Of a stretch of 64,000 nucleotides of DNA, positions 1 to 53,090 are shown in pieces. A program made the translations under genes and the position numbers. Source of the stretch: Sporosarcina sp. Marseille-Q4063. GTDB lineage: Bacteria; Bacillota; Bacilli; Bacillales_A; Planococcaceae. The notes beneath the pieces are model-generated. The model was not told the DNA's origin, ran no database searches, and was given only the letters and a program-made list of their open reading frames with translations. Every line of letters starts with the position of its first letter. The stretch's first letter is position 1. The stretch covers positions 2,108,001 through 2,172,000 of the forward strand of contig NZ_CP070502.1 of the NCBI RefSeq assembly GCF_018309085.1, given 5' to 3'.

Positions 1-3000
1 TTGGCCGCGTTCAATTACATCGCCGACTTTAACTGTGAAGCGCGCGTTGTATGGTCCAAGGTATTTACGCGTTTCCACGCTACCTTCGATTGTAACTTCA
101 TGCTGACCTTCACGGATTTCATCGATTTCTGTAACGGTTCCGTTGATTTCCGAGATAACGGCTTTACCTTTCGGATTACGCGCCTCGAAAATTTCTTGAA
201 TACGTGGAAGACCTTGTGTAATATCGTCTCCTGCAACTCCACCTGTATGGAACGTACGCATTGTAAGCTGTGTACCTGGTTCTCCGATTGATTGTGCAGC
301 GATGATTCCAACTGCTTCACCAACTTCGACTTGTTCACCTGTTGCGAGGTTAATTCCGTAACACTTCTTACATACGCCGTGTTTCGTATCACATGTAAAT
401 GCTGAACGAATCGTAATAGTTTCAATACCCAAGTCCGTAATAATACGAGCTGTATCTTCTGTTATCAATTCATTTCTGCCAAGTATTACGGCACCAGTTT
501 CAGGGTGGTAAATTGTTTTCTTCGTATAACGTCCGAAAATACGCTCATCGAGTCTTTCGATGACTTCTGCACCTTCCATAAGCGCACCGATTTCCAATCC
601 ACGATCCGTACCGCATTCGTCTTCTCTGACAATGACGTCTTGTGCAACGTCAACGAGTCGACGAGTTAGGTAACCTGAGTCAGCAGTCTTAAGCGCCGTA
701 TCTGCAAGTCCTTTACGGGCACCGTGTGTAGAAATAAAGTACTCAAGAACAGTTAGGCCCTCTCGGAATGATGACTTAATCGGAAGTTCGATAATACGTC
801 CAGCCGGGTTTGCCATCAATCCTCGCATTCCTGCAAGTTGCGTAAAGTTAGATACGTTACCACGAGCACCTGAATCACTCATCATAAAGATTGGGTTCAG
901 ATTGTCCAATGATTCCATAAGTCTAACTTGAATGTCATCCCTAGCAGCACTCCAGTAAGCGATAACGCGGTCGTAACGTTCCTCATCTGTGATTAGACCA
1001 CGACGGAACTGCTTTAATACGTTGTCGACTTTACTTTGTGTTTCTGCAAGAATTTCATCTTTGTCTGGAAGCACGATAATATCGGACATACCGATTGTTA
1101 TTCCAGCACGAGTTGAGTATTTAAAGCCGAGATCCTTCATCCGGTCAAGCATTTTAGAAGTCTCTGTAATGTGGAAACGTTTAAAGATTTCAGCAATGAT
1201 ATTACCAAGAATATTCTTTTTGAACGGTCCAACAAGTTCAGTGTTTTCAAAATGCTCTTTCACATTTTCAGTTCCTGAAATGAAGTACTTATCTGGCGTT
1301 TGGATTTGCAAATTGAAATCAGTCGGTTCATTGATGTACGGGAATGATTCCGGCAAGATTTCGTTGAAAATAACTTTACCAACAGTTGTTAGTAAAAGCT
1401 TTGCATTGTTTTCTTCAGTAAATGTCGGGTTTTTGAGTGAACCAGCTTGAACAGCGATACGTGTATGAAGATGAACATAACCGTTTGTATAAGCGATCAT
1501 CACTTCATCCGTATCACGGAAAACTAGGCCTTCACCTGTTGCCCCCGTACGTTCCAATGTCAAGTAATAGTTTCCTAAAACCATATCCTGGGATGGGGTA
1601 ACAACCGGCTTCCCGTCTTTCGGGTTCAAAATGTTTTGTGCTGAAAGCATTAGAAGACGAGCTTCTGCTTGCGCTTCAGCGGATAAAGGTACGTGAACAG
1701 CCATTTGGTCACCATCAAAATCCGCGTTGTATGCAGTACATACAAGTGGGTGAAGTGTGATCGCACGACCTTCTACTAGTACCGGTTCAAATGCTTGGAT
1801 ACCAAGTCGGTGAAGTGTAGGTGCTCGGTTTAACAGCACTGGGTGTTCTTTAATAACTTCTTCTAGAACGTCCCAAACTTCCGAATGAAGGCGTTCGATT
1901 TTACGTTTAGCACTCTTAATGTTATGAGCTAGACCACGTTCAACGAGCTCTTTCATAACAAAAGGTTTAAACAATTCGATGGCCATTTCTTTCGGCAAAC
2001 CGCACTGATACATTTTCAACTCGGGTCCAACAACGATTACAGATCGTCCTGAATAGTCAACACGTTTACCAAGTAAGTTTTGACGGAATCGACCTTGTTT
2101 ACCTTTCAACATATGTGAAAGTGATTTCAATGGGCGGTTTCCTGGTCCAGTAACCGGGCGACCTCGACGACCGTTATCAACTAGCGCGTCAACAGCTTCT
2201 TGAAGCATACGTTTTTCGTTTTGAACGATAATTCCAGGCGCGCCAAGATCAAGAAGTCTTTTCAGACGGTTATTCCGGTTAATAACCCGGCGATACAAGT
2301 CATTCAAATCGGAAGTCGCGAAACGACCGCCGTCAAGTTGTACCATTGGGCGTAATTCAGGTGGAATAACTGGCAGAACCTCAAGAACCATCCATTCTGG
2401 TTTATTGCCAGAGTTACGGAATGATTCAACAACATCCAGGCGTCTAATTGCACGTGTGCGTCGTTGTCCTTGAACAGTTTTCAGTTCTTCTTTTAACGAT
2501 TCTGTTTCTTGATCTAAATCGATTGCTCTAAGGAGGCGTTCAATTGCTTCCGCACCCATTAGCGCTTCGAATTTATTTCCGTATTTTTGTCGATATGCAC
2601 GATATTCTCTTTCAGAAAGCAATTGCTTTCTTTCAAGTGGCGTATCTGCAGGTTCAACAACAACGTAGGAAGCGAAATAAATGATTTCTTCCAAGGCGCG
2701 CGGTGTCATATCAAGAATAAGACCCATACGACTTGGAATTCCTTTAAAGTACCATATATGCGTGACTTGAGCCGCAAGTTCGATGTGGCCCATACGTTCG
2801 CGACGTACTTTTTGACGTGTTACTTCTACTCCACAGCGATCACAAACGACGCCTTTATAACGAACGCGTTTATACTTTCCACAGTGACATTCCCAATCTT
2901 TCGTAGGACCAAAAATACGTTCACAAAACAGACCTTCTTTTTCCGGTCTCAATGTACGGTAGTTAATTGTTTCTGGCTTTTTGACCTCACCATAAGACCA

Positions 3001-26109: not shown

Positions 26110-26577
26110 TTATAGCTGTTCATAAATAAGCGTTATGAGCATTGCGCGCAAAATACGCGCTCGAATTTCATCGCGTTCCGGCAGCGGAATACGGATGGTC
26201 GTTCGATCGACTGCCGCAAGTATCAGCTTAGATTCGCGTTCCGAAATCACTTCTTCATCGATGAGCCGATACACAACGTCCAGCGCCATCGTATGCGAAG
26301 CGCCGCCGTCGAGACCCGATAGGATATGTTCGATTAATTCTTTACGGGTGTTTGGCCGGACACGAAAAATACGAATATAGCCACCGCCGCCCCGTTTCGA
26401 TTCAACGGCATATCCACGCTCTGCTGTAAAACGGGTATTGATCACGTAATTGATTTGCGATGGCACGCATTGAAATTTCTCCGCAACTTCATTGCGCTTA
26501 ATTTCAATAATGCCATTCTGTTCTTTTTCGATAATCGTTTTTAAATACCCTTCAATAATATCAGAAATGTTTCGCAC
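26110..26577 (-). CDS. ctsR: Transcriptional repressor CtsR
   Basis: Heat-sensing repressor of clp genes. The 155-residue protein has the N-terminal winged helix-turn-helix (residues 1-75) with the glycine-rich wing RGGGGYIRIFRV, which senses temperature, and a helical C-terminal dimer domain. Start is GTG 26577 after AGAGGTGAGG. It represses its own operon through the box at 26616-26632. Confidence 0.97.
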   Translation of the reverse strand: MRNISDIIEGYLKTIIEKEQNGIIEIKRNEVAEKFQCVPSQINYVINTRFTAERGYAVESKRGGGGYIRIFRVRPNTRKELIEHILSGLDGGASHTMALDVVYRLIDEEVISERESKLILAAVDRTTIRIPLPERDEIRARILRAMLITLIYEQL

Positions 26578-26663: not shown

Positions 26664-26783
26664 TCGATTTGCATTGGGTTTGGTGATCAGAATCAGTATC
26701 GGCGGATGAGGGGGGTGTTTAGACATTGGATTGTGATGTGGGAGCTAGCAGAGTTCGTCGAGGCAGGGTGGGAGACGGAGACC

Positions 26784-27248
26784 GTTGCGGGAATAAACTA
26801 GCGTGTTACGGGAGCAAACACAGGCGATACGGGAAGAACCAACGGCGTTGCGGGAATAAATTTGCGCGGGACTCCGTTGCGGGAATAAACAGGCGAGTTA
26901 CGGGAGCAAACACAGGCGATACGGGAAGAACCAACGGCGTTGCGGGAAGAAATTTGCGCGGGACTCCGTTGCGGGAATAAACTAGCGTGTTACGGGAACA
27001 AACACAGGCGATACGGGAAGAACCAACGGCGTTGCGGGAAGAAATTTGCGCGAAACCCCGTTGCGGGAATAAACAGGCGAGTTACGGGAGCAAACACAGG
27101 CGATACGGGAAGAACCAACGGCGTTGCGGGAATAAATTTGCGCGGGACTCCGTTGCGGGAATAAACTAGCGTGTTACGGGAACAAACACAGGCGATACGG
27201 GAAAAACCAACGGCGTTGCGGGAATAAATTTGCGCGGGATCCCGTTGC
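26784..27248 (+). repeat. 92-bp satellite array 1 (five units of four phased words)
   Basis: Five consecutive units start at 26784, 26876, 26968, 27060 and 27152, each exactly 92 bp, plus a five-base stub. Each unit holds four related words (GTTGCGGGAATAAA, GTTACGGGARCAAA, GATACGGGAARAAC, GTTGCGGGAAKAAA) at start-to-start distances 21, 21, 21 and 29 bp. Units 1, 3 and 5 carry the linker CTAGCGT after the first word, units 2 and 4 AGGCGA, giving a 184-bp higher-order repeat. The stretch lies between the ctsR promoter and the 3' end of the next gene; frames through it are not genes because 92 is not a multiple of three. Confidence 0.95.
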
Positions 27249-27303: not shown

Positions 27304-27338
27304 AAAAAAGGACTTCCCTCAACCTGGGAAGTCCTTTT
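27304..27338 (-). terminator. Rho-independent terminator of the 27343-29037 gene
   Basis: GGACTTCCC and GGGAAGTCC form a strong stem on the minus strand, followed by TTTTTT. Confidence 0.85.
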
Positions 27339-27342
27339 CACT

Positions 27343-29037
27343 TTATTTCACACTCGTATTCGTCAATTCCCTAACCGGTAAAAATTGTTCTCCAGTTTCT
27401 AAATACGTCAGAACCAGTTTATCGCCTTCTTGAATATAGATTGCGAGTGGTTCAACCTCAGAGGAAACGAGGTAATTTCGACCATCATCCGCCAAAATCG
27501 ACACTAGCGTGAAATCGCCGACACGTTCTTTAAACACACGAACGACCGTGATCGCCGCTTTTGCCTCTTCTGCATTCGAACTGCCGTCAACCGTGCTTCC
27601 GCCTCGCTGAAGTGCTGTCTTATATAGTTTCAACGCTTCGTTCGGCGTGGTTCCATACACGGATATTTCAGGATTCGCTGCCGACACGATAAAGTAGTTT
27701 TGCAAGAATCCGTTCGAGTCCAGAACCGGCGTCAGCCAGCTGGCTTCGCCGTAAAAATTATACAGAACCGGCATTTCGCCAGACCATTTCTTTTCAATAA
27801 ACTTCTTTTCGATAATCTGTAGAGCCCCTTGCGAATCCATATAGGACTCTTCAAGATTCCCAGTGTAATAAGTCGCCTTCCCTGTACGGCCATCTGTTAA
27901 CGCATAGCCTAACATCGAATCGACGCCTTCTTTCGGACTCGTGAAGTCTGTGAAGTAATACATATGCCCTTCTTCATCGAATATCGGACTCACATTTGCT
28001 TCTGTTCCTTCATCCGAAGGAAGTTTCACGTCTTTCTTACCGACAACGGAATTCCAAAAACCATGAATGTAATTCCCGAAATAACTGTTTTGCAGACTTA
28101 CAGCTTCCGGAGAAACCGCACCGTTAATAAATGCAGGCACTTCAGCAATCGGGAATTTCTCGATATCGCCTGTCGCCGGGTCCATCATGACAATACCTTT
28201 AACGTCAAAACCGTTACGCGCGGTAATAAATTCTCCGTATGAACGAATGTAATGAGGTTTTCCTTCGTCATCAACCTCCAACTGGACGTCGCCGTAAAAA
28301 ATGAGGTTCGGCATGGCCATTCTGATGTGTCGCTCCACATTCTTGCCGAAATAGGAGGACGGCGTGTAAATCATTTCAGCTTTCACAAATTTCGGATTGT
28401 CTGCTGAATCGGTCGCGCTCATCGTAAAGTATCCAGGAGTGGACTTCGCGCTAAACCATTTGAAGAATCCTGAAAATTCAACGGGCGCGATATAGACGAA
28501 ATCATCGCCCACCTTCTGGATTTGCAAGTTGCCGAGTTCATAGTAACTCGTATTCGGAACTTGGCCGAACGCTTTTTTCATTTTATTCCGCGCGAATTTC
28601 GGCGGAACACTTGCCGGCGTTTTTGTTTCATCAAACGCTGTAATTTCCACTTTCTGATCCATTTCCACCGCTTTAAATTTCTTGTCTGCGTTGAAAAGCG
28701 GCGCGCTCAGTAGATAGACTACGAACACGGCTGCCCCGATAAATAGAACGATTTTCGGTTTGCGGTCTTTCGGTCCCGCGAACGCTACCCCCATGAAAGT
28801 GATGATAAGCAGCATCACCCATAATGAAGTCCAATTTCTATCTAAATTGGATAGGTAATAAACGCCGAACACGATAGCTGCTATCAAAGCCGCGGTGCTT
28901 GCCAAGGCTGCCCAACGGTTGAACACTAACTCTTGTTCTTCATTTTCCTTATTCCTTTTCACAGTTGTCGCGAACGGAACGATAATTAGACTAGCTACAA
29001 TTCCGACTATAATGGAAAATAATAATAGATTAATCAT
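27343..29037 (-). CDS. Membrane-anchored protein of unknown function
   Basis: I do not recognise this protein. Its roughly 564 residues begin with a hydrophobic N-terminus (MINLLLFSIIVGIVASLIIVP), followed by two to three more predicted transmembrane helices (about 45-65, 72-90, 97-115). A large soluble region of about 440 residues follows, rich in aromatic and acidic residues, probably extracytoplasmic. I use ATG 29037; GTG 29046 is also in frame, and neither has a strong ribosome site. It stands alone between the bioB terminator and array 1. No catalytic motif was seen. Confidence 0.8.
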   Translation of the reverse strand: MINLLLFSIIVGIVASLIIVPFATTVKRNKENEEQELVFNRWAALASTAALIAAIVFGVYYLSNLDRNWTSLWVMLLIITFMGVAFAGPKDRKPKIVLFIGAAVFVVYLLSAPLFNADKKFKAVEMDQKVEITAFDETKTPASVPPKFARNKMKKAFGQVPNTSYYELGNLQIQKVGDDFVYIAPVEFSGFFKWFSAKSTPGYFTMSATDSADNPKFVKAEMIYTPSSYFGKNVERHIRMAMPNLIFYGDVQLEVDDEGKPHYIRSYGEFITARNGFDVKGIVMMDPATGDIEKFPIAEVPAFINGAVSPEAVSLQNSYFGNYIHGFWNSVVGKKDVKLPSDEGTEANVSPIFDEEGHMYYFTDFTSPKEGVDSMLGYALTDGRTGKATYYTGNLEESYMDSQGALQIIEKKFIEKKWSGEMPVLYNFYGEASWLTPVLDSNGFLQNYFIVSAANPEISVYGTTPNEALKLYKTALQRGGSTVDGSSNAEEAKAAITVVRVFKERVGDFTLVSILADDGRNYLVSSEVEPLAIYIQEGDKLVLTYLETGEQFLPVRELTNTSVK

Positions 29038-29146
29038 ATGAAGCACTCATTTCTTGTTAAGGATTTTAACTACTTCCCTCTATACGATTAAAATACGAAA
29101 ACGTTTCATTTCTTCCACAAGTTTTTATTAGAAAAAAATTCTTCAA

Positions 29147-31532: not shown

Positions 31533-32180
31533 GTGTTGCGGGAATATATGTGGAGACTCGTGCGTTGCGTTGCGGGAATAACGTTGGTCGTTACGGGAGC
31601 AAAATGACGCGATACGGGAACAAAATCTACGACCCGCGCGTTGTGGGAATAAACTAGTCTGTTACGGGAACAACGTCGGCCGATACGGGAGCAAAATGAC
31701 GCGATACGGGAACAAAATCTACGACCCGCGCGTTGTGGGAATAAACTAGTCTGTTACGGGAGCAACGTTGGCCGATACGGGAGCAAAATGACGCGATACG
31801 GGAATAAAATCTACGACCCGCGCGTTGTGGGAATAAACTAGTCTGTTACGGGAGCAACGTTGGCCGATACGGGAGCAAAATGACGCGATACAGGAACAAA
31901 AACTACGACCCGCGCGTTGCGGGAATAAACTAGTCTGTTACGGGAATAACGTCGGCCGATACGGGAGCAAAATGACGCGAGACGGGAATAAAATCTACGA
32001 CCCGCGCGTTGCGGGAATAAACTAGTCTGTTACGGGAACAACATCGGCCGATACGGGAGCAAAATGACGCGATACGGGAACAAAATCTACGACCCGCGCG
32101 TTGTGGGAATAAACTAGTCTGTTACGGAAACAACGTCGGCCGGTACGGGAGCAAAATGACGCGATACGGGAATAAAATCA
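31533..32180 (+). repeat. 92-bp satellite array 2 (about seven units)
   Basis: Six near-complete units start at 31640, 31732, 31824, 31916, 32008 and 32100, exactly 92 bp apart, preceded by a 71-bp three-word unit at 31569 and one decayed word at about 31534. Words GTTGYGGGAATAAA, GTTACGGGARCAAC, GATACGGGAGCAAA and GATACGGGAAYAAA occur at 21, 21, 21 and 29 bp. Linkers (CTAGTCT, GTCGGCC, ATGACGC) differ from array 1 but the words match. The array fills most of the 865-bp gap between the divergent cotD-like and NERD genes. Confidence 0.95.
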
Positions 32181-45304: not shown

Positions 45305-45326
45305 TTTGTTAATAGTTTGTTCATAT
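45305..45326 (+). promoter_or_regulatory. Direct-repeat operator upstream of prsA
   Basis: TTTGTTAATAG (45305-45315) and TTTGTTCATAT (45316-45326) are adjacent 11-bp repeats followed by TTTCGCATGTACAAT, which parallels the htrA promoter (TTTTCCATGTAAT). TACAAT may be the -10. Confidence 0.65.
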
Positions 45327-45373
45327 TTCGCATGTACAATCGAAGTAAATCTAACATTTATGGGGGAGAAATA

Positions 45374-46258
45374 ATGCGCAAGAAGTTCATGAAATCACTG
45401 CTACTCACTGGTTTGCTAGCAATCGCATTCGTTATCGCGGGTTGTTCAAATGATGGTGAAAAAGTAGCAACAGTCGACGGTCAAAAAATTACAAAAGATG
45501 AGTTATACAATGCAATGGTAAAAACGGGTGGTCAAGAAGCCCTTTCAGTATTAATCGACGGCAAATTAATCGATCTTGAAGTAAAAGATAAAAAAATTAA
45601 AGTATCCGACAAGGAAGTCGAAGATGAGTTTGCAACCTTCGTTGAACAAACTGGCGGCGAAGAAGCATTCAAATCCGCTCTTGAACAAAGTGGAATGAGC
45701 GAAAAAGAATTCAAAGAAAATATTGTTGAATACTTATCACTTCGTAAATTACTAGAACCACGCATTGAAATTACTGATGAAGAAATCGAAGCTTATTACG
45801 AAGAACACAAAGAGCAATTGGGCCAACCTGAACAAGTAGAAGCAAGCCATATTCTTGTTGAAGATGAAAAAACAGCAAAAGAAGTCGAACAAAAGCTTAA
45901 AGACGGCGGAGACTTCGCGAAACTTGCCGAAGAGTATTCACAAGATCCATCCAATGCAACGAACGCGGGCGAACTAGGATTTTTCGGAAAAGGTAAAATG
46001 GTTCCGGAATTCGAAGAAGTTGCATTCGCAATGGAAGTTGATGAAATCAGCGGTCCTGTAGAAACGAGTCACGGTTTCCACATTATCCACGTCACGGATA
46101 AAAAAGAAGCAAAAGAAGCTTCACTTGAAGATTCAAAAGAGCAAATTAAAGACGCTATTTTCGAGGAAAAAATGAACACAGAATACGAAGCCTTAATGGG
46201 CGAATTGAAAGAGAAGTACAAAGTTGAAAATACTTTGACTGAAAAAGAAGGAAAATAA
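45374..46258 (+). CDS. prsA: Foldase lipoprotein PrsA (parvulin peptidyl-prolyl isomerase)
   Basis: Lipid-anchored foldase that helps exported proteins fold outside the membrane. The 294-residue precursor has a lipoprotein signal ending AFVIAGCS (Cys near residue 23), an N-terminal chaperone domain and a parvulin domain (about 155-245, EASHILVEDE, GELGFFGKGKMVPEFE, SHGFHIIHV). ATG 45374 follows GGGGGAG; the frame from 45317 is too long. It has a strong terminator. Confidence 0.96.
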   Translation: MRKKFMKSLLLTGLLAIAFVIAGCSNDGEKVATVDGQKITKDELYNAMVKTGGQEALSVLIDGKLIDLEVKDKKIKVSDKEVEDEFATFVEQTGGEEAFKSALEQSGMSEKEFKENIVEYLSLRKLLEPRIEITDEEIEAYYEEHKEQLGQPEQVEASHILVEDEKTAKEVEQKLKDGGDFAKLAEEYSQDPSNATNAGELGFFGKGKMVPEFEEVAFAMEVDEISGPVETSHGFHIIHVTDKKEAKEASLEDSKEQIKDAIFEEKMNTEYEALMGELKEKYKVENTLTEKEGK

Positions 46259-46269
46259 GTCAGCGTTTA

Positions 46270-46300
46270 AAGGAAAAGCTTTCGGGCTTTTCCTTTTTTT
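46270..46300 (+). terminator. Terminator of prsA
   Basis: AGGAAAAGC and GCTTTTCCT pair and are followed by a T-tract, directly after the prsA stop. Confidence 0.9.
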
Positions 46301-46335: not shown

Positions 46336-46644
46336 GTTTATTACCGTTGCTCTATGGTTTATTCCCGTAACGACGCTCGTTCATCCAGTATCGCCCGGGT
46401 TTGCTCCCGTAACTCAATCGTTTATTCCCGCAACAGGATCCAGCGCGATTTTATTCCCGTAACGACACTCGTTATTCCCGTATCGTCCGGGTTTGCTCCC
46501 GTAACTCAATCGTTTATTCCCGCAACAGGATCCAGCGCGATTTTATTCCCGTAACGACGCTCGTTATTCCCGTATCGCCCGGGTTTGCTCCCGTAACTCA
46601 ATCGCTTATTCCCGCAACGGGATTACGCGGTTATTTATTACCGG
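46336..46644 (-). repeat. 92-bp satellite array 3 (three units, minus orientation)
   Basis: Read on the minus strand, units start at 46618, 46526 and 46434, exactly 92 bp apart. Words GTTGCGGGAATAAA, GTTACGGGAGCAAA, GATACGGGAATAAC and GTTACGGGAATAAA lie 21, 21, 21 and 29 bp apart, the same design as arrays 1 and 2 but with other linkers (CGATTGA, CCCGGAC). Decayed words (GCAACGGTAATAAA) flank both ends. The array sits between the converging prsA and HAAS genes and fills most of the 397-bp gap. Confidence 0.93.
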
Positions 46645-46655
46645 GATTCGACACG

Positions 46656-47426
46656 TTATGATCGTTGCGCAAATTTCGATTCCCTCTTTTTCAGAACCAA
46701 TAGATGCACAGCGAACATCACAGTTATAAGCCCCATCGAAACAATCCAACTCACGATTATTTTCGCCTCATCATTAATCGATGTAAAATTGAACGCTATC
46801 TGCGGCGCGAACAGTAAAACGGGAACCACAATGGCTATCCACTGATTTAACCAAACGGCCCCAACAACAAATATTAATGCACAAATAATCGCTATGACAA
46901 TATTCATCTTCGGCGACGCTACATACAATGGTTCGATAAAAAACGTGCTTGAAAGAGCCACTACGATAAACAATAGCATGACAAACGTGACTGCGAAAAA
47001 TGCCGTAAAAAATAATTTCTTACCGGTCCACTCCTTTTTCGCCATATTTCTAAACAATGCCCAGTAAATAATTAGCGATACCATCCCCACAGCCGGCACC
47101 CCGATTAGCTGGATGATATTCACTTCAAATGCACCGTTTATCGCACTGCCCATCACCGAATACGCCACAATAATTAGCCCAATAAACGGAACACACTTCA
47201 ACCAAGCCGCATAATCATTCGTCATCTCTTTCTCCAACGACTCCATGTACGCTACCGGCGATCCTGCCGTAATACTCTCAACACTTTTCCCGCGACTTTC
47301 AAGTTCCGCAAGATGATCTTCCAGCTCCCCCGTAACCTCGACAATTTCCTGTTCATTTTTCCCCGATGTGAACAAATACAGCCGAACGTTTTTGACAAAC
47401 TCATCACTTCTCTTTGATAGCTTCAT
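46656..47426 (-). CDS. HAAS-type multi-pass membrane protein paired with PadR
   Basis: The 256-residue protein has an N-terminal soluble helical region (about 1-75, with ELEDHLAELESRGKS, typical of HAAS/DUF1700-like domains) and six predicted transmembrane helices. It overlaps the PadR gene by 23 bases; such pairs commonly sense membrane or antibiotic stress in Firmicutes, but the role here is unknown. Confidence 0.8.
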   Translation of the reverse strand: MKLSKRSDEFVKNVRLYLFTSGKNEQEIVEVTGELEDHLAELESRGKSVESITAGSPVAYMESLEKEMTNDYAAWLKCVPFIGLIIVAYSVMGSAINGAFEVNIIQLIGVPAVGMVSLIIYWALFRNMAKKEWTGKKLFFTAFFAVTFVMLLFIVVALSSTFFIEPLYVASPKMNIVIAIICALIFVVGAVWLNQWIAIVVPVLLFAPQIAFNFTSINDEAKIIVSWIVSMGLITVMFAVHLLVLKKRESKFAQRS

Positions 47427-52081: not shown

Positions 52082-52232
52082 AAAGCCGCCCCTGAAAACG
52101 ACAGGAAGCGGCAACCATGAAAATAAAAGGCGCGGATGCCCACTTTCCTCCGTCGGTATAATCCGAATCAGGTTCCAAGGGTCCGCGCATACTCGCACGT
52201 CTCAGCCTATAAAAGGCACCCCTAGTGGTTAT
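52082..52232 (-). promoter_or_regulatory. TPP riboswitch with terminator, thiD-thiE
   Basis: On the minus strand the THI-box elements follow in order: ACTAGGGGTGCC, GGCTGAGA, ACCCTTGGAACCTGAT, CGGATTATACCGACGGAGGA and AGTGG (about 52231-52143). A GCCGCTTCCTG / CAGGGGCGGC stem with TTTTATC (52112-52082) is the terminator. It should shut off thiDE when TPP is high. Confidence 0.95.
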
Positions 52233-52353
52233 CAAACTATTCAGCTTTGACTCAACTATAACACACTTAAACGGAAATCTGAAATGGACATCGTGAAATG
52301 TTTTCGACTTTTCGGTGAAATATTGGTGTTGGCGGGTTTTATATAACTACTTA

Positions 52354-52827: not shown

Positions 52828-52928
52828 TGATTATGAAATATATCTTCTGGTATTCGACCTCTAAATTTAAAAACCCTTTTTCACTTTTCGTATTTCTATG
52901 GTATAGTGAAAACAAATTGAATGATTTT

Positions 52929-53090
52929 GCCACTAGGGGTGTCCTTTACAAGGACTGAGATGCATATGGATATGCGGACTCTTATTACCTGATCTGGTTC
53001 ATACCAGCGGAGGGAAGTGGGACTGCGTATTTTCACGAACTTAATTCAAAACCGCAGGCCGCTTCCCGACTATCAGGGAGCGGCTTTTTC
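52929..53090 (+). promoter_or_regulatory. TPP riboswitch with terminator, thiM-thiW
   Basis: CCACTAGGGGTGTCC, GACTGAGATG, ACCTGATCTGGTTCATACCA, GCGGAGGGAAGTGG (52929-53025) match the THI box. The GCCGCTTCCC / GGGAGCGGC stem with CTTTTTC (53058-53090) is the terminator. A candidate promoter TTCACT-16-TATAGT is at 52880-52907. Confidence 0.95.

Follow-up and report, generated by a model that had tools for sequence, protein, structure and literature searches.

Word arrays with a two-turn step in gene gaps of Sporosarcina: candidate clusters of protein-binding sites whose words change between species

Three dispersed arrays of 92-bp units stand in gene gaps of a Sporosarcina sp. Marseille-Q4063 chromosome, each unit carrying four short words built around CGGG. 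They lie in a 64,000-nucleotide stretch, called the window here, which covers bases 2108001-2172000 of a genome (G000) consisting of one 3.98-Mb contig. What these arrays are, and what keeps their words and spacing, is the question raised by this locus. A preliminary description of the window had reported the four-word design, with words at 21, 21, 21 and 29 bp. The arrays are real and built as it said, according to TRF calls with 93-94% matches and counts of word steps (Table 1). The three arrays contain 58 word steps no longer than 36 bp, 45 of 21 bp and 12 of 29 bp; the lone 34-bp step lies at the edge of array 2.

Table 1. Positions of the arrays and adjoining hairpins in the window
Feature	Position	Strand	Found by	TRF 92-bp call (copies)
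Array 1, five 92-bp units, CGGG words	26784..27248	+	TRF, word scans	26782-27248 (5.1)
Terminator-like hairpin between the end of the 567-aa ORF and array 1	27305..27339	.	script scan	
Array 2, six full 92-bp units and partial units, CGGG words	31533..32180	+	TRF, word scans	31569-32179 (6.6)
Array 3, about three 92-bp units, CGGG words	46336..46644	-	TRF, word scans	46358-46623 (2.9)
Terminator-like hairpin adjoining array 3	46269-46296		script scan	

The three gaps differ in the direction of their genes. Array 1 lies between ctsR (26110-26577, minus), the product of which is CtsR by Pfam (PF05848/PF17727), and a 567-aa open reading frame (ORF; 27343-29046, minus), and its words run antisense to both. 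Array 2 occupies a divergent gap, with a 93-aa ORF on the minus strand and an ORF with a Pfam NERD domain on the plus strand. Array 3 is in a convergent gap, between an ORF with a Pfam PPIase domain (45317-46258, plus) and an ORF on the minus strand (46656-47426). Elsewhere in the window, two CGGG-like words with two mismatches each stand 29 bp apart at 2544-2585 (minus strand), either a decayed array or chance.

The word type at each position of the unit had been described as conserved between arrays. This holds for the three arrays of the window, which run GTTG, GTTA, GATA and then GTTG, GATA or GTTA, with flaws: GTTGTGGG in four of the six full units of array 2, AAGAA or AAAAA endings in array 1, and a decayed final unit in array 3. 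It does not hold for the genome, where other loci use orders such as GTTA/GATA/GTTA/GTTA and GTTG/GCAA/GTTA/GATA; the order is thus a trait of a sub-family. The claim that linkers are uniform inside arrays and different between them was borne out by ten arrays of the genome, with linker identities of 0.900 within and 0.468 between arrays. Linker 1 is only partly free and follows an ACNANNG pattern.

The unit is spread well beyond the three places first noticed. A two-word pattern with free spacing matches 123 times in the genome, as opposed to 0 for a reversed control, so the pattern is not a product of chance. A structure-free profile built from 34 units was run under strict filters against the 68 genomes of the genus. 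In G000 it detected 61 units, which fall at about 18 loci. In Sporosarcina jiandibaonis LAM9210 (G008) it found 35 units at 14 loci, and synteny added one array. Weak matches occur in G057 (one) and G059 (four), and the profile at these filters found nothing in the remaining 64 genomes. Since the 92-bp unit is confined to two of the 68 genomes, it is the word and the step that generalise, and not the unit. Across all 18 and 14 arrays of these two species, 21 or 29 bp accounts for 347 of the 374 steps. A second word class has the same design with CGAG in place of CGGG, and some arrays mix the two.

Selection on the words had been suggested because they were conserved while the linkers appeared free, and comparison of the two species supports it. 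Flanking DNA traced ten of the 18 G000 arrays to G008. Nine gaps are shared by both flanks, namely those of the three window arrays and others near 0.65, 1.99, 2.87, 3.75, 3.77 and 3.87 Mb; the array at 1.16 Mb was matched to a G008 array by one flank. In the consensus units of five ortholog pairs of the same word class and orientation, words differ at 20 of 260 sites and linkers at 36 of 120 (P 4.7e-8), about a fourfold excess in linkers, although units were located via their words, which somewhat favours the figure for word conservation. Words of non-orthologous CGGG arrays in G000 differ by 15.7% and their linkers by 51.9% (55 pairs), indicating that the five pairs are related by descent. 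At four-fold sites in 84 gene comparisons around shared arrays, 4030 of 11535 differ, and linkers are no different from these sites (P 0.29). Linkers drift at about the neutral rate, and words do not.

Arrays of other words share the step. Words every 20-21 bp form arrays in at least 18 of the 68 genus genomes, a tally of the genomes with the word classes below plus G000, G008, G040 and G057 (the last with a TTTAGGCGC word), and in six genomes of two other genera. The most widespread word, TTATGCGY, forms three-word arrays in 19 of 261 family genomes (13 in this genus and six in the two others), and one genome reaches 179 two-word matches. The order-level search for this word covered the same 261 genomes, and its whole-genome spread therefore refers to the family. 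Arrays of CTTGAGCGCGG occur in eight of the 261, every one in the genus of Sporosarcina, and AATAAACGAGCG matches in three, one with a single match. The G040 pattern, GMGMGGAMTTC, was found in one of the 68 genus genomes. The known words are absent from 50 of the 68; the element is thus dispensable or present there in other words.

The step of these classes is strict. A fresh scan of TTATGCGY loci that preferred no step, with clusters of fewer than three exact words left out, gave 155 of 155 steps between exact words as multiples of 20 or 21 (38 arrays in six genomes, four of them inside ORFs by a crude caller). For the other classes, with at most one mismatch and steps of up to 36 bp, all 201 CTTGAGCGCGG steps (25 arrays) and all 67 AATAAACGAGCG steps (seven arrays) are 20 or 21 bp, and in G040 (four arrays) 25 of 33 are 21 bp and eight are 18 bp; the patterns by which these arrays were found permitted steps of about 17-23, 17-21 and a wider range, respectively. 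Exceptions at array edges, in words with two mismatches, are single steps of 16, 17, 19, 20 (G040) or 22 bp, and one 18-bp TTATGCGY step was seen in G009. A spacing of 20 or 21 bp is two helical turns, which places the words on one face of the DNA. The preliminary reading of 21 bp as a two-turn step is strengthened by its recurrence in other classes, with the qualification that the 29-bp fourth step breaks the phase once per unit. The linkers of TTATGCGY arrays have lost nearly all similarity, with identities of 0.390 within arrays, 0.366 between arrays of the same genome and 0.372 expected from column composition (26 arrays, G012 left out). Because word and step outlast the rest of the array, neither slippage nor selfish spread is a simple explanation, and selection on word and step is well supported. 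Around ctsR, 40 stretches no longer than 20 kb from genomes without words recognised by then contain 11 intergenic tandem-repeat loci, each with a period close to a multiple of 20 (20, 21, 40, 61, 82, 121, 122), of which those of 61, 121 and 122 bp may be another kind of repeat.

The word also varies by species at one and the same gap. At the gap of array 1, five word types occur across six species: besides G000 and G008, it holds GMGMGGAMTTC in G040, CTTGAGCGCGG in G050, AATAAACGAGCG in G059 and a TTATG-type word in G009. In G042 the same gap has a 61-bp repeat of 2.8 copies (L197:10649-10819), perhaps three 20-bp steps. These cases come from the DNA upstream of ctsR in 53 genomes (30 + 23), in seven of which a repeat was noticed, the remainder having been read coarsely. 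Near 3.77 Mb, G000 and G008 both carry CGAG words where G040 carries its own word. At two gaps, those of array 3 and the 1.99-Mb array, CGGG in G000 corresponds to CGAG in G008, and G014 and G039 carry differing words in the gap near 30.9 kb of the window. Four-fold divergence near array 1 is similar for both comparisons (442/1298 for G000-G008 and 524/1500 for G000-G040). At an equal neutral distance, G008 has kept the words yet G040 differs, which indicates turnover at the same gaps. The unit layout is 21+21+21+29 in G000 and G008 and 21+21+21+18 (81 bp) in G040. The odd steps differ by 11 bp, or one turn, so the rotation between units would be equal; as a single coincidence, this is only suggestive.

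Arrays prefer particular gaps. Of 97 arrays, 13 were dropped (12 inside an ORF of at least 90 aa by the crude caller and one without a neighbour), leaving 84 placed, with 60 in tandem, 21 in convergent and three in divergent gaps. Among 266 array-free gaps of the same loci, 167 are tandem, 29 convergent and 70 divergent. Divergent gaps are avoided (P 9e-7) and convergent gaps favoured (P 0.002). Without 14 known or likely shared-gap copies, 72 of 83 were placed, 52 in tandem, 18 in convergent and two in divergent gaps (P 1.4e-6 for divergent, 0.004 for convergent). Genes and terminators were called with simple scripts. By these, 102 gene ends face an array: 46 are followed by a terminator that precedes the array, 17 by one lying only beyond it, and for 39 none was found. 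Relative to tandem genes, words are antisense in 39 cases and sense in 21, although the sign is arbitrary between classes.

Taken together, the sequences show a word of about 8-13 bp that is kept, its step held at 20 or 21 bp and the DNA between drifting about neutrally, in arrays that occupy gene gaps, mostly at gene 3' ends, with a word that varies by species at the same gap. The best explanation, to which we give a probability of roughly 0.55, is that the words are binding sites, clustered into arrays, for sequence-specific DNA-binding proteins, with a boundary role at gene ends and with words swapped when the binder changes. From the patterns above we infer the binding protein, the row of such proteins and the boundary. 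Each word would be the site of a protein reading about 8-13 bp, one per two turns, and neighbouring bound proteins would touch, giving a polar row along one side of the DNA; arrays of the CGGG/CGAG form would have four proteins per unit, with the phase shifted from one unit to the next. Most likely the row would serve as a boundary that separates transcription units, either by stopping read-through or by retaining supercoils. A change of binding protein would bring a genome-wide replacement of words, and behind the word classes may stand several proteins or a single family of changing specificity. Turnover at fixed gaps fits strong selection redirected upon a change of binder, the rival being a re-seeding of hot spots. 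Several observations sit less well with this explanation: array 2 is one of the three arrays in divergent gaps, 39 of the 102 gene ends lack a found terminator, most genomes of the genus show none of the known words, and array 1 has the opposite orientation in S. jiandibaonis, which is odd for a polar boundary.

If the binding-site reading is right, these bacteria have a large overlooked set of putative protein-binding arrays at gene ends, with a possible bearing on how bacteria separate neighbouring transcription units, and a natural multi-species record of joint change in a DNA-binding protein and its sites. The binder could be fished out with the arrays as bait, and word swaps at fixed gaps between close species would make co-evolution directly testable. 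A wider and more doubtful proposal is a family-wide chromosome element, in which one-faced word arrays at transcription-unit boundaries are read by a rapidly evolving binder family, and words change from species to species at gaps that persist, as do the two-turn step and even the four-word unit. If true, satellite/binder co-evolution would have a bacterial counterpart here. In eukaryotic alpha-satellite higher-order repeats, multi-monomer units are homogenised per array, with rapid sequence turnover at kept places. The homogenisation of units and the turnover are analogous here, whereas these arrays span hundreds of bases, are bacterial and are dispersed in gene gaps.

An alternative that we consider unlikely is that the arrays are selfish, non-autonomous REP-like repeats, whose words are read by a transposase or recombinase that spreads arrays to gene ends and re-seeds gaps, new enzymes giving new word classes. 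As PMC2817692 and PMC3733652 describe them, REPs are dispersed, species-specific, of several types per genome, located between tandem or convergent genes and fast in turnover. The arrays share all of this, with 81 of the 84 placed between tandem or convergent genes and most at gene 3' ends; the inversion of array 1 and the sharing of only part of the arrays by G000 and G008 also suit such spread. Structure separates them, since REPs are palindromic and alternate in orientation in BIMEs, while these words are direct and non-palindromic, with a strict two-turn step and drifting linkers. Arrays 1 and 3 contain no inverted repeat with arms of at least 8, and array 2 one 8-nt palindrome. An association with the RAYT (Y1 transposase) domain PF01797 is absent as well: it occurs in 14 of 19 array genomes, a set that includes G004 (three two-word matches) from outside the 18 above, versus 37 of 49 others, and G009 and G012 have arrays and lack it. 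An ageing selfish array should also lose its words, yet words and steps persist here with linkers at saturation.

Direct repeats about two turns apart are found in plasmid-origin iterons too, which are bound by protein on one face beside a rep gene. The arrays share the spacing and differ in lying at many chromosomal gene gaps (about 18 loci) and in changing words between species at the same gap; their neighbours in the window are ctsR, the NERD ORF and the PPIase ORF instead of a rep gene. MIRU-VNTR, BOX and cyanobacterial STRR elements are intergenic tandem arrays of short units with variable copy number and are defined by sequence, whereas here word and step persist and linkers do not. The preliminary description knew of no named family of this form, and none appeared in Rfam or in the literature searched, which included few subscription papers and has no description of such arrays. 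All three refuting conditions set by that description (the unit in only three places of one strain, linkers as conserved as words, a known repeat family) came out in its favour.

Neutral minisatellites, arising by slippage and unequal exchange that mechanically favour two-turn periods, are a still less probable source. Units are homogenised inside arrays, copy number differs between orthologs, and 21-bp arrays occur also in distant metagenome-assembled genomes (MAGs), though the search pattern selected that step. Such a process would make all unit positions diverge alike between species and fails to predict the fourfold conservation of words over linkers, linkers that keep almost no trace of copying, or one word at many gaps per genome. 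In 18 stretches from other genera, nine loci show mixed periods (36, 88, 21, 42, 85, 13, 21, 20, 54), four of them 20, 21 or 42. The 121/122-bp intergenic repeats of G028 and G033 (L195:18155-18375, L196:19099-19433) look like a different repeat family.

Very unlikely is an RNA-level element, in which transcribed 3' arrays are bound by an RNA-binding protein: the sites lie past gene ends, and the fold of array 1 is no more stable than that of shuffled sequence, whichever strand is taken (z +1.9, +3.1), so that its RNA would be open, but a terminator precedes the array at 46 of the 63 gene ends where one was found, words occur in both orientations, and a strict 20/21 step suits the DNA helix better than single-stranded RNA. 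A structured RNA was rejected: the four Rfam matches of the window lie elsewhere than the arrays, and the consensus fold is -0.9 kcal/mol. The arrays are not REPs by structure or transposase, and not a known structured RNA. Two TPP riboswitches stand back to back in the window by Rfam, about 0.7 kb apart, at 52128-52233 (-) and 52925-53032 (+).

The words are not dispersed single sites either, with 29 outside arrays (260,642 bases, at most one mismatch) versus 19-22 in four Markov simulations, a slight excess at most. A reading of the words as Chi-like sites (AGCGG) was dropped as well, this motif being missing from some word classes. A phage origin was likewise set aside: of 28 viral stretches with the two-word CGGG pattern, 27 have chains of at most two words and one has three, and viral stretches gave no AATAAACGAGCG, nine three-word TTATGCGY and three CTTGAGCGCGG matches. 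Seven of the latter 12 were read; four are local repeats of three words with steps of 21-22 bp, and three look like coding matches.

Some repeats were met in passing. In genus g13 (G151, G156, G170, G154) the reversed control is unclean, with 28 hits in G151 and 27 in G156 (16 and 19 in a second search), and these many matches, YGCGTATT words at 18-22 bp steps, are probably another array word class. Viral contigs have three TTATGCGC words at 21-22 bp steps (L265:3940-3990, L264:1760-1812, L260:1616-1668, L263:3653-3703). Treponema and Prevotellaceae MAGs contain 21-bp tandem arrays of CGGGANNAA words (L040:6197-6468, L034:5223-5442, L041:5154-5310), found with a pattern that selected word and step. 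The Treponema array lies between converging long ORFs, yet is crossed by ORFs of 85-111 aa.
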